NCBI GenBank assembly: GCA_013140605.1
Contig: JABFSL010000061.1
Span: 1-64,000, forward strand
Reading direction: 5' to 3'
Source: Anaerolineales bacterium
GTDB taxonomy: Bacteria > Chloroflexota > Anaerolineae > Anaerolineales > Villigracilaceae
DNA length: 64,000 bases
The position numbers were made by a program, and so were the translations under genes. Of the stretch, positions 15,214 to 18,891 are shown one piece after another; position 1 is the stretch's first letter, and every line of letters starts with the position of its first letter. The notes beneath the pieces were generated by a model. The model did no database searches. It had not been told where the DNA came from and saw only the letters and a program-made list of their open reading frames with translations.

Positions 15214-16407
15214 ATGTCAAAACAAACTTTCAAATGGGACGACCCTTTCCTGTTCAACGACCAGCTCACAGACGAAGAGCGCATGATCCGCGACACGGCG
15301 CGCAAATATTGTCAGGATAAGTTAATGCCGCGTATCCTTGAAGCGAATCGACACGAAACATTTGACCGAACCATCATGAATGAAATGGGCAGTATGGGGT
15401 TGTTAGGCTGTACTCTGCCCGAAGAATACGGCGGCTCGGAATTAAATTATGTCTCCTATGGCTTGATCGCCCGTGAAGTAGAGCGCGTGGACAGCGGCTA
15501 TCGCAGTGCAATGAGTGTGCAGAGTTCGCTGGTCATGCATCCCATTTACACCTATGGTTCCGAAGAACAACGCAAAAAATATTTGCCCAAACTCGCCAGC
15601 GGAGAGACTGTTGGCTGTTTCGGGTTGACCGAACCCAATCATGGCAGTGACCCTGGCAGTATGGAAACCCGCGCCAAAAAAGTGGATGGCGGCTGGATTC
15701 TGCAAGGCAACAAGATGTGGATCACCAATTCCCCAATTGCGGATGTGTTTATTATTTGGGCAAAAGTATATGGCGGCTCTGATAAAGATGGTGAAATTCG
15801 CGGCTTCATTCTCGATAAGGGAATGAAGGGACTCAGCGCTCCGAAGATACATGGCAAGTTTAGCCTGCGTGCCAGTTCAACGGGTGAGATCGTCATGGAA
15901 GAAGTCTTCGTACCAGATGAAAATATGCTTCCCAATGTCAGCGGCTTGAAGGGACCATTCGGCTGTTTGAATAAAGCGCGTTACGGAATTGCCTGGGGCG
16001 CATTAGGCGCAGCAGAATTCTGTTGGCACGCCGCGCGGCAATATACGTTGGATCGTCCGCAGTTTGGCAAGCCGCTTGCCGCGAATCAGATCATCCAACT
16101 GAAACTGGCAAATATGATGACAGAAATTACTTTGGGATTGCAAAGTGTTTTAAGAGTTGGAAGGTTGATGGATGAAGACAATTCCACGCCTGAGATGGTT
16201 TCATTAGTCAAGCGTAATTCATGTGGCAAGGCCTTGGAGATCGCACGAAACTCCCGTGACATGCACGGCGGCAACGGCATCTCCGATGAGTATCATGTCA
16301 TTCGGCATGTGATGAACTTGGAAGCGGTAAATACTTATGAAGGTACGCACGATATTCATGCTTTGATCTTGGGCAGAGCACAAACGGGAATACAGGCGTT
16401 TTCGTAA
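15214..16407 (+). CDS. gcdH: Glutaryl-CoA dehydrogenase-type acyl-CoA dehydrogenase
   Basis: A 397-residue FAD enzyme that oxidises an acyl-CoA to the enoyl-CoA; the glutaryl-CoA type also decarboxylates to crotonyl-CoA. Family signatures: [16 protein letters not shown] (FAD-binding, about 134-149), [16 protein letters not shown], and the catalytic base in [15 protein letters not shown] (Glu about 376). The Arg in [15 protein letters not shown] matches the residue that binds the substrate carboxylate in glutaryl-CoA dehydrogenases. Shine-Dalgarno GTGAGGT precedes the ATG. Together with the nearby crotonase it could serve lysine or aromatic degradation. Electron acceptor would be an electron-transfer flavoprotein, not encoded here. 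Confidence 0.9.
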
Positions 16408-16409
16408 AT

Positions 16410-16447
16410 AAAAAGAGGATGCGTTTTCAAATACGCATCCTCTTTTT
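16410..16447. terminator. Bidirectional terminator between gcdH and the rhodanese gene
   Basis: Perfect 15-bp stem (16410-16424 with 16433-16447), loop 8, A-rich on one side and T-rich on the other, so it can end both convergent genes. Confidence 0.85.
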
Positions 16448-16461
16448 GATTCTATTATGAA

Positions 16462-16962
16462 CTATGGCTCTATTGGATATCCTGCGTCTGCCCAGGCAGA
16501 TAACCCGCCAAGGATCGGGTTGACACGGGTAAAGCCATTTTGCAAAAGAAGGAACGCCGCACGGGCGCTCGTATGTTCATTTTGTCAGGTGCAGTAGGTG
16601 ATGATCCACTGGTCTTTTTCAAGGGTGATGTTACTGATATTAGTTTCAAATTCAGCCAGCGGAATGGAGATCGCGCCCGCAATGTGACCAGCCGCAAAAG
16701 ACTCCGCGCTGCGAACATCCACAATGACCGCTTCACTGCCATCGACTGCCGCTTTGGCATCTTCAACTGTAATGCGCGGCACATCCGCTTCTGTGAGCGG
16801 AATATCTGCCTGCCCCTGTGTTGGAGTCTGGTTTGGGTATGCCTGATTTGGGTAAGCCTGGTTTGGATATGCCTGGTTCGTTGACTCTGTTTGCGGCTTC
16901 GTAACAGTACAAGCGGATATGGAAAACAACAGAAGCAAAATTATAAGCAAGTTTTTTTTCAT
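16462..16962 (-). CDS. Rhodanese-like lipoprotein with in-frame TGA
   Basis: One reading frame of 166 codons interrupted by TGA at 16587-16585. The N-terminus MKKNLLIILLLLFSISAC is a lipoprotein signal; a linker with three YPNQA units follows, then a rhodanese domain (ITVEDAKAAV, VIVDVRSAESFAAGHIAGA, IPLAEF, WIITYCT). After the TGA the frame goes on as QNEHTSARAAFLLLQNGF and ends GGLSAWADAGYPIEP, i.e. an intact C-terminal half. In relatives as I recall them the active loop reads Y-C-x-C-P-x-E-x-T-S-A-R, so TGA falls on the second Cys. Selenocysteine, a nonsense mutation or a sequencing error are all possible. It would transfer sulfur at the outer membrane face. If TGA is a stop, the protein ends after 125 residues. 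Confidence 0.75.
16552..16570 (-). other. Candidate bacterial SECIS-like hairpin
   Basis: On the minus strand GAGCGCC pairs with GGCGTTC (7 bp, one G-U) around the loop CGTGC, starting 15 bases after the TGA; the loop G residues lie 23 and 25 bases after it, within the 16-37 bases reported for bacterial SECIS elements. The stem lies in GC-rich coding sequence, so chance is a serious alternative. Confidence 0.3.
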
Positions 16963-16979
16963 TAAGTGGCTCTCTTCAA

Positions 16980-17015
16980 AAATTCCGTCGCAGGAGCAAT
17001 CCTGCGACGGAATTT
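16980..17015 (-). terminator. Intrinsic terminator of pepF
   Basis: Perfect 16-bp stem (16980-16995 with 17000-17015), loop GCAA, followed on the minus strand by TTTTTGAAG. It separates pepF from the downstream rhodanese gene. Confidence 0.85.
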
Positions 17016-17021
17016 AGAAAA

Positions 17022-18824
17022 CTATAGTTCACAATATCTTTCAACACGCTTACCGATAATGGCGAGGCTATCAGCCCAGAACTTTTTGGTGCGGATGTTG
17101 ATGCCAAATCGGTCGGCAAGTTCTGCCGCGCGATCCTCACCTGTAGTGGCGAGCAAGTTCTTGTAATCTGGGACAAAGTCCGCGCCGCGTTTTTGGTAAA
17201 TGGCATATAAGCCAGTTGCGAAGAGCAGACCGAATGCGTAGGGATAATTGTAGAAGGATAGTCCACTGGAATAATAATGTGGCTTCCAGGTCCACATGAA
17301 CTTTTGCAGATATTTTTCATCGAGACCGTCACCATATGTGGCTTTTTGAGCGCGTTCCATGATGTCGTTCAAGTCATCGGCTGAAAGTTCAGATTGTTTG
17401 CGGCGTTCAAAGACTTCCTTTTCGAAGAGATAGCGCGAGTAAATATCCACGATCACACTGGAGGCATTGTTCATTTGTGCTTCGAGAATTGCCAACTCTT
17501 CCTGCGGATCAGTCACCTGCGCCAGTACGGCTTCGGTGACAATCGTCTCGCACATGATGGATGCGGTTTCCGCCAGAGTCATCGGCGTAAATTGTTGTAG
17601 TTCGGTCTTGCCTGCCTGATAAGCGCATTCATTATGGAAGGCGTGACCAAGTTCATGCGCCAACGTGCTGACCTGATCGAACGAGCCGTCAAAGTTGCTT
17701 AGGATGCGGCTCTCTTTTACGCCTGCAACACCCATGCAAAAAGCGCCGCCGCGTTTACCATCACGCTGTTCGGCATCGATCCAGTTGTTGTCGAAAGCGC
17801 GTTGGGCGAATGCGCCGAGTTCGGGAGAGAATTTGTTGAAATTGCTGACGATAAAATCGCGCGCTTCATCGAATGAATAAACTTTATCGGTCTTGCCCAT
17901 TGGGGCCATGATGTCCCACCAGGCGAGTTTTGCCTTGCCAATCAATTTGGCTTTATGTTTGAAATATTTCCTAAACATCGGGAAGGAATCTTTCATTGCG
18001 CCGAGCATGGCGTTGAGCGTTGCGCGATCCATGCGGGCAACGTCAATGGAGGCGTGGATTGCGTCTTCGCGGCCGCGTTTTTTGTCGAGAGTCAGCGTTT
18101 CACCCTTGACCCCGTTCATGCAGGCGGCCAATGTTTCCTTGACTCCCTCCCAGGCAATGTTCTCAGCCTCATACCCGCGGCGGCGGGTTGGTTCATCGGG
18201 ATGCGAGCGCAGGTTGATCAGCGCAGGCATGGGTAATTTCTCAGTTTTTCCACCCAGCTCAAAGTCGACGGAAAGCTGCGAGGTTAACGTCCCCTGTAAT
18301 TTGCCGAAGGCATTGCCCCCGCTCAAAGTCAGTTCGGCGGCGAGAATTTCCTCCGCTTCGCTCATCATGTATTTGGATTGGTCAACGCTTTCGTTGAGCG
18401 TGAATTCGTGTGCTTTGGCAGATGTATTTGTCTTTGCGGCTTTCTTCACTGCGGCCTTGCCGAGTTTGCCGACCCATGCCTGAAATTTTGTGTTGAGGAT
18501 GCTCGCCTGCACCGACATCTGTTCGAATTCCGAGAGGGCGCGCATCGCGTCTTTGTTGCGTGAGTCGGTGGTGACGTAGGAATAAATGAAAGGGTTGATG
18601 GTGTTGGAAAGTTCGAAGAGCGCATTGAAACGGTCCACAGATTCACCGAGTAGTTTGCCGAGTTTCTTCGGCTCGGTCTTGGAATCCGCTTTGCTGGCTT
18701 TCTTGAAAAAAACTTCCATTTCATCCAGTAAAGACTTGTATTTCTTTATGGCGGTCTTGAATTCTTTGGATTCGAGTGAGGGGTAGACGTTGGTCATATC
18801 CCAGCGAGATGCGGAAATGGTCAT
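17022..18824 (-). CDS. pepF: Oligoendopeptidase F (M3 family)
   Basis: A 600-residue cytosolic zinc metallopeptidase that degrades short peptides. The zinc motif HELGHAFHNE is at about residues 388-397, with the downstream Glu in LAETASIMCETIV; the N-terminal helical region and C-terminal PYAFGLLFATGLYAIYQ fit the M3B oligoendopeptidase F clan. Start at the ATG at 18824 is decided by AGGAGAA a few bases upstream; an in-frame ATG at 18869 would add 15 residues without support. A TATACT box on the minus strand (18860-18865) is a plausible -10. Divergent from the gene at 18945. Confidence 0.93.
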   Translation of the reverse strand: MTISASRWDMTNVYPSLESKEFKTAIKKYKSLLDEMEVFFKKASKADSKTEPKKLGKLLGESVDRFNALFELSNTINPFIYSYVTTDSRNKDAMRALSEFEQMSVQASILNTKFQAWVGKLGKAAVKKAAKTNTSAKAHEFTLNESVDQSKYMMSEAEEILAAELTLSGGNAFGKLQGTLTSQLSVDFELGGKTEKLPMPALINLRSHPDEPTRRRGYEAENIAWEGVKETLAACMNGVKGETLTLDKKRGREDAIHASIDVARMDRATLNAMLGAMKDSFPMFRKYFKHKAKLIGKAKLAWWDIMAPMGKTDKVYSFDEARDFIVSNFNKFSPELGAFAQRAFDNNWIDAEQRDGKRGGAFCMGVAGVKESRILSNFDGSFDQVSTLAHELGHAFHNECAYQAGKTELQQFTPMTLAETASIMCETIVTEAVLAQVTDPQEELAILEAQMNNASSVIVDIYSRYLFEKEVFERRKQSELSADDLNDIMERAQKATYGDGLDEKYLQKFMWTWKPHYYSSGLSFYNYPYAFGLLFATGLYAIYQKRGADFVPDYKNLLATTGEDRAAELADRFGINIRTKKFWADSLAIIGKRVERYCEL

Positions 18825-18891
18825 GGTTATTCTCCTAAAAGTAATGTTGAGGTAGGGGTAGTATACCAAAGGCCTGGGGGAACTTCTTTGC

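Follow-up and report, generated by a model that had tools for sequence, protein, structure and literature searches.

The in-frame TGA codon in a rhodanese lipoprotein gene of an Anaerolineales bacterium very probably encodes selenocysteine (Sec), and the gene product would be, as judged from its sequence, a lipid-anchored, extracytoplasmic selenoprotein of the rhodanese fold with a Cys-Thr-Sec (CxU) active site. The gene lies at positions 16462..16962 on the minus strand of the window, the whole stretch of 64,000 nucleotides that was analysed. One intact frame leads from the ATG at 16962 to a TAG stop at 16462 and contains a single internal TGA at 16587-16585 (Sec126; 16585..16587, minus strand), giving a protein of 166 aa when this codon is read as Sec. 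The translation around the TGA is ..WIITYCT(TGA)QNEHTSARAAFLLLQNGFTRVNPILGGLSAWADAGYPIEP, and the active site reads YC-T-TGA-QNEHTSARAA, in which the TGC codon at 16591..16593 (minus strand) specifies Cys124, the partner of Sec126 in the CxU motif. The protein begins with the lipoprotein signal MKKNLLIILLLLFSISAC. The predicted signal peptide (16909..16962, minus strand) has the lipobox ISAC at its end, with Cys18 assigned by the pattern of PROSITE PS51257, and the lipobox pattern recurs in 28 of the 30 loci of the same type, our own included. A short repeat-rich linker, NQAYPNQAYPNQ, lies between the signal and the rhodanese domain (16486..16770, minus strand). The Pfam Rhodanese model (PF00581) matched residues 65-159 with 59.4 bits against a gathering cut-off of 22.2 and spans both sides of the TGA, in agreement with the original prediction of a rhodanese frame continuing across this codon. 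That prediction had offered a selenoprotein, a nonsense mutation or an error; the selenoprotein is favoured, since every one of the 69 homologous places has the TGA, a hairpin of the SECIS type follows it and the genome contains the sel genes.

The conservation of the codon was examined in a near-relative set of 101 genomes, consisting of our own and 100 relatives, 84 of which contained some rhodanese match at E <= 1e-8. Each of the top 69 places (E <= 6.9e-24), distributed over 47 of the 101 genomes, had exactly one internal stop, a TGA, and once the sequences were extracted this TGA was found at the identical codon in all 69. These places, own included, share 42-99% identity, and Cys124 is likewise conserved in 69 of 69. 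Two loci without the CxU motif (L097 and L098) were dropped from this work. The first TGA-free row of the search (G045, 1.1e-18) covered query residues 2-64 only, stopping short of the TGA codon, and the next one followed at 9.5e-16. The residue after the TGA was Pro in 46 of the 69 sequences, Gln in 17, Leu in four and another residue in two; the Gln of the window protein, previously counted against Sec, is therefore a natural variant. Cys occupies the Sec position in the CxC homologues L307 and L308 (codons TGC and TGT) and also in L137, L138 and L186. Among plasmid homologues (265 records matched), seven from the best 30 were examined solely to see whether Cys stands at the Sec position, and two of the seven showed the CxC motif. 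Thus, the combination by which a selenoprotein is recognized, a UGA conserved in orthologues and Cys in other homologues, is present in this family.

The occurrence of the gene also follows that of selA, which was detected in 45 of the 47 gene-bearing genomes as opposed to 39 of the 54 without it (two-sided Fisher p=0.0025). Within a class set of 396 genomes, 91 matched a second Sec rhodanese of our genome, described below, at E <= 1e-14, and a TGA-containing rhodanese match was read by eye from the table for 69. Here, selA was found in 64 of the 69 TGA-rhodanese genomes versus 256 of the 327 others (one-sided Fisher p=0.0026). The TGA-gene genomes with no selA match, two of 47 and five of 69, are all draft assemblies of at least 180 contigs. 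In our own genus, 15 of 57 genomes (own included) lacked a TGA rhodanese, so that the gene is either dispensable or was missed there. Some class members depart from the common motif: in L170, L175 and L177 it is shifted, with Sec directly after Cys (RCU, YCSDCU and YCGRCU), and L182 of genome G159, which was set aside, is another rhodanese type, of the YCxxxHxGxS..ERAA kind, in which only the first of the two positions is TGA (YU).

The original prediction had made the Sec reading depend on selA, selB, selC and selD being found in the genome, their absence being taken as refutation. The window genome is a draft of 3.93 Mb in 132 contigs, 96.2% complete, and contains the whole set by which a selenoprotein-making bacterium is recognized: selA (554.8 bits, cut-off 267.9), selB (296.6 bits, cut-off 242.25, its frame ending at a contig end after 460 aa), selD (354.3 bits) and a tRNA-Sec with the anticodon TCA (66.3 bits, gathering score 47). 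The sel genes sit on other contigs; their absence from the window, raised earlier as a counter-argument, is therefore uninformative. The selD gene carries one in-frame TGA of its own (..SACAG(TGA)ASK..). At this locus (L018 1402-2463, minus strand), the TGA is found together with a SECIS-like hairpin at the N-terminal motif, and the hairpin following the TGA is of the same design as that of the rhodanese gene (AGCGC-CGAU-GCGCU, -9.2 kcal/mol by the bSECIS rule). SelD is a further selenoprotein of the window genome and serves as an internal control.

The candidate SECIS element is a hairpin of 7 bp with a conserved 5-bp core at 16552..16570 (minus strand), within the coding region. It covers positions 18-36 counted from the T of the TGA, corresponding to 15-33 bases after the TGA, and bears the loop CGUGC at 16563-16559, 21 nt from the UGA. 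A 7-bp hairpin with G in its loop at 15-33 bases past the TGA, the position of bacterial SECIS elements, had been predicted, and both its presence and its position stood. According to the passages of PMC13188914 cited here, the bSECIS rule prescribes a stem of 4-16 bp, a loop of 3-9 nt with G in the first two loop positions, a distance of 16-37 nt from the UGA and a minimum free energy of -7.5 kcal/mol or lower (PMC13188914). The window hairpin lies within all of these limits, with 7 bp, a 5-nt loop having G second, 21 nt and -10.0 kcal/mol. When the segment was recoded synonymously 5,000 times using the codon usage of the window, 2.2% of the recodings had any SECIS-type element and 0.76% an equally stable one. 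A simple hairpin rule was applied to 130 sequences, among them both genes of our genome and a few genes that occur twice; 93 reached -7.5 kcal/mol and 126 reached -5 kcal/mol, with 37 and four, respectively, missing these values. Compared with dinucleotide shuffles, the 48-nt piece is only moderately stable (z -1.87; 10 of 200 shuffles as stable). An Rfam search returned no SECIS; it gave seven hits at E <= 1, all of them below their gathering scores and judged to be chance matches. A simple terminator scan also lists the hairpin at 16552..16570, as terminator-like.

Codon choice in the 69 sequences provides a further view of this region. Codons +7 (GCC) and +9 (GCG) are the single codon used wherever the majority residue is encoded, and +6 (AGC 63, AGT 6), +8 (CGT 66, CGG 2), +10 (GCG 62, GCA 7) and +11 (TTC 41, TTT 1) are nearly frozen. 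Further 3', the codons for Leu, Gly, Val and Pro each vary, with four to six codons in use, so that the block of frozen codons 3' of the TGA and the hairpin occupy the same place. The codons 5' of the TGA are uniform too, with ACC for 68 of 68 Thr at -1 and mostly ATC and TAC at -6, -5 and -3, so that the hairpin explains only part of the codon uniformity. Among 117 unique homology-found sequences (L175, one codon shorter, was omitted), the 5-bp core stem, comprising pairs 20-34 to 24-30, is 98-100% paired, and the second loop base is G in all 117. The core pairs show exchanges of C-G to U-A at pair 21-33 in 14 sequences and at pair 24-30 in two, as well as A-U at 21-33 in one sequence and C-G to U-G at 23-31 in three. 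In the 69-sequence alignment, none of 500 shuffles matched the number of cells changed on both sides (11) or the covariation score, whereas 176 of the 500 had at least as many pairs changed on both sides (two) and all 500 at least as many pair types (three). A control slid by +3 had a covariation score of 0.107 versus 0.099 for the actual structure; 92.5% of cells were paired in the actual structure versus at most 57.8% in slid versions.

How else might the TGA be explained? An internal TGA usually signals a nonsense mutation, which would have left a rhodanese pseudogene truncated at 125 aa, and the frame analysis alone cannot distinguish the two. However, the frame beyond the TGA remains rhodanese-like in 69 places, each with TGA. 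The internal stops among the matches listed in the near-relative and class sets are all TGA and never TAA or TAG, the upstream peptidase gene is syntenic in 29 of 30 loci, and both the TGA and the downstream protein are conserved across the class, all of which makes a decaying gene extremely improbable. A sequencing or assembly error converting TGC or TGT into TGA could be suspected in a window taken from a draft genome of 132 contigs, but the same TGA appears in separately assembled genomes, namely the 47 of 101 near relatives and 69 of 396 of the class set, and in named records of several phyla; we give an error hardly any credence. A frame that is open under TGA=X would look identical if UGA had been reassigned in this lineage and stood for an amino acid such as Trp or Cys instead of Sec. 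Yet TGA ends nine of the 49 ORFs of at least 200 aa in the window and is hence still a stop codon, it is accompanied here by a SECIS-type hairpin and the Sec machinery, and the other TGA genes of our own genome met in the rhodanese and sel searches are the second rhodanese and SelD, leaving reassignment with next to no probability. On these grounds, all three rival readings were discarded.

With Sec insertion as the preferred reading, SelB carrying Sec-tRNA(Sec) would bind the SECIS hairpin 15-33 nt downstream of the UGA, and we propose that the UGA at 16587-16585 is read as Sec because of this binding. Translation would otherwise end after 125 residues. Since Sec decoding at a UGA competes with termination, the two products could also be a programmed dual output, a selenium-dependent switch that yields a 125-aa lipoprotein under selenium shortage and the complete selenoprotein under ample supply. 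The truncated product would retain its lipobox and the beginning of the rhodanese domain, but in the structural model it is devoid of the active-site helix and everything beyond, and it is therefore unlikely to fold or work. We consider such a switch improbable, albeit less so than the three readings rejected above.

The AlphaFold2 model of residues 53-166, computed with a 49-sequence alignment, has a mean pLDDT of 96.5, and the solved structures closest to it are rhodaneses (6mxv, 3tp9 and GlpE 1gmx). In the model, the strand preceding the active site stops at the residue just before Cys124, and the active-site helix begins one residue after Sec126. The equivalent of the classical catalytic Cys would be C72 of the model by strand position but U74 by the distance to the following Ser. 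Sec126 would be located at the N-terminus of the active-site helix and may act as a helix-capped selenolate nucleophile, with Cys124 as its putative resolving partner through a selenenylsulfide. The persulfide loop of classical rhodaneses is CxxGx(R/S), and the loop of the window protein, CTUQNEHTS, does not fit this pattern. Because the usual loop is replaced, classical cyanide/thiosulfate rhodanese activity is disfavoured, and the likely work of the protein would be sulfane-sulfur, thiol-disulfide or peroxide redox chemistry at the cell surface.

The conserved neighbours of the window gene give no pointer to its substrate. Upstream lies a gene that by resemblance encodes an oligoendopeptidase F-like (M3) protein (17022..18869, minus strand), and an M3 peptidase-like gene holds this place in 29 of 30 window-type loci, own included. 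The convergent downstream neighbour is acyl-CoA dehydrogenase-like by resemblance (15214..16407, plus strand) and recurs in 26 of these 30 loci; of the four loci that miss it, two are cut short by a contig end. No sigma-70-type promoter was found in 16380-17100. A very stable palindrome at 16963-17022 (minus strand; -32.6 kcal/mol), terminator-like by eye and absent from the terminator scan, sits between the stop of the upstream peptidase gene and the rhodanese start. As it leaves scant room for a separate promoter, attenuation of the Sec gene is possible.

Nine rhodanese matches were found in the window genome, two of them with an internal TGA, namely the window gene and a second one located on contig 30. 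The latter reads WIITYCT(TGA)PNEESSARAA; its N-terminus is hydrophobic but, as judged by eye, lacks the Cys of a lipobox. It is flanked by an ArsR-type regulator and a gene resembling cation efflux (CDF) genes, and the locus (L004 454-3272) forms a cluster with FeoB-like and CDF-like genes, assigned by resemblance, and the ArsR-type regulator. This gene content suggests a context of metal homeostasis for the second Sec rhodanese. A family search with 20 selected neighbour proteins of Sec-rhodanese loci gave no clear function; DinB_2 occurred in three loci (two of them UxU), an ArsR-type regulator in two and a second rhodanese in one, and the rest belonged to unrelated families or none. The DinB_2 gene starts 1-10 nt after the Sec rhodanese in L269, L291 and L197, and the DinB_2 proteins of L291 and L197 also match the mycothiol-isomerase N-domain. 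This adjacency is a hint of thiol chemistry.

At least 20 distinct relatives carry TGA at both active-site Cys positions (UxU), including the codon equivalent to Cys124 (L129-L135, L199, L230, L269, L280, L291, L303 and L314-L320). Seven of them are class members found by homology, with both TGAs in the active site (YUTU), and all seven genomes have selA; six others are among the database stretches described below. When TGA was fixed at both positions, a scan of 400 genomes of our own phylum gave seven matches, and the same scan with TAA or TAG at the first position gave none in the 400 genomes. The 20 UxU sequences are mutually distinct and match a CxU-family profile at E <= 1.3e-25, the profile having been built partly from five UxU sequences (L129-L133). 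A motif-pattern count of 61 is an undercount that missed L167 and L183, in which CxU follows another residue. A tree of 88 of 185 sequences was made by a quick method and left 48 of 85 inner branches open. On it, no fewer than ten changes are required for the UxU label, just two of which are forced by well-supported branches, and when the labels were shuffled 500 times, eight shuffles were clustered as strongly as UxU. A repeated origin of UxU is likely, the number of origins being uncertain.

The codons of the UxU motif are UGA-ACN-UGA or UGA-GCN-UGA, which places the two UGAs 6 nt apart, and the Cys codons TGC and TGT are one change away from TGA. The first UGA is 27 nt and the second 21 nt from the loop; each distance falls within the published range of 16-37 nt, and one SECIS could thus serve both. 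The CxU rhodaneses, the group of the window gene, have probably become double selenoproteins, likely more than once, which would use one SECIS and possibly form a diselenide active site. Whether Sec can be inserted twice at so short a spacing under the direction of a single bacterial SECIS, and what the second Sec contributes to the active site, are questions for which the UxU relatives offer a natural test. UxU rhodaneses are new here; they have no mention in the tables consulted from two reviews (PMC9312934, PMC13188914) or in an open-licence literature search.

Named near relatives place the window in the class Anaerolineae of the phylum Chloroflexota. Relatives of the Sec rhodanese are found throughout this class, and a DNA pattern that includes the SECIS detects them in several phyla. 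The pattern consisted of the two active-site codons, the TGA and the SECIS core, and it matched at least 118 stretches in GTDB genomes, six of them UxU; as it is partly dictated by the protein motif S-A-R-A-A, this was not a pure RNA search. Eighty of these stretches all encode a rhodanese with CxU or UxU, and for another 38 this motif was recognized from the translation alone. By organism name, 115 of these loci were assigned to Acidobacteriota (44), Chloroflexota (35), Myxococcota (10, in records named Deltaproteobacteria), Gemmatimonadota (6), Pseudomonadota (6), Rokubacteria (5), Thermodesulfobacteriota (3), Thermomicrobiota (2) and Nitrospirota (1), with three unplaced. The pattern had no match in IMG/VR viral contigs.

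Standard annotation takes the TGA as a stop and would cut the window gene there. Because the family is common in the class and occurs in several phyla, surface selenoenzymes may be overlooked or wrongly truncated in considerable number. Furthermore, a Sec rhodanese with a lipid anchor suggests that redox or sulfur chemistry dependent on selenium takes place outside the cytoplasm.

Rhodaneses with Sec have been on record since the Sargasso Sea survey of 2005 (PMC1088965), and selenoproteins of the CxU type are given in the consulted parts of two reviews (PMC9312934, PMC13188914). The same parts of PMC13188914 describe forms 1, 2 and 4 of rhodanese-like selenoproteins as UxxS or UxxG; these have the Sec rhodanese domain in common with the window gene, whose motif is CxU instead. 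TsoB (NF045694), described there as a rhodanese/DsbD fusion-like selenoprotein with the motif UxxxxU and two Sec (PMC13188914), shares a Sec rhodanese domain and, with the UxU relatives, the number of Sec residues, but its model is a fusion of 572 positions to which the window protein scored 27.4 bits against a cut-off of 805. The single-domain rhodaneses GlpE (1gmx), PspE and Alr3790 share the fold (VIA-align Z 16.4 and rmsd 2.3 over 105 residues for GlpE 1gmx against the model), whereas they have the classical CxxGx(R/S) loop where the window protein has CTUxxExxS.

The closest known system is the CxU form, which the cited parts of PMC13188914 list as rhodanese-like selenoprotein form 3, tie to the NCBIfam family NF041203 (rhodanese_LYCAU) and credit to Zhang and Gladyshev 2005. 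The likeness comprises the rhodanese domain, the CxU motif (YCTU here) and E.xSAR after Sec, and NF041203 is the best NCBIfam match of both proteins of our genome (E 3.7e-23 and 4.1e-23). Both miss its cut-off of 115 bits, the window protein with 81.6 and the second rhodanese with 81.4 bits. Among ten relatives, four pass (three deltaproteobacterial ones with 172-181 bits and one with 116.6) and six fail (72-110). In comparison with NF041203, the window protein is a lipoprotein with YCTU from a set spread over its class, and in view of its score of 81.6 bits against 115, we call it a divergent, surface-anchored variant rather than filing it as a member. The window protein nevertheless shares the NF041203 motif and, by this resemblance, probably works like that family.
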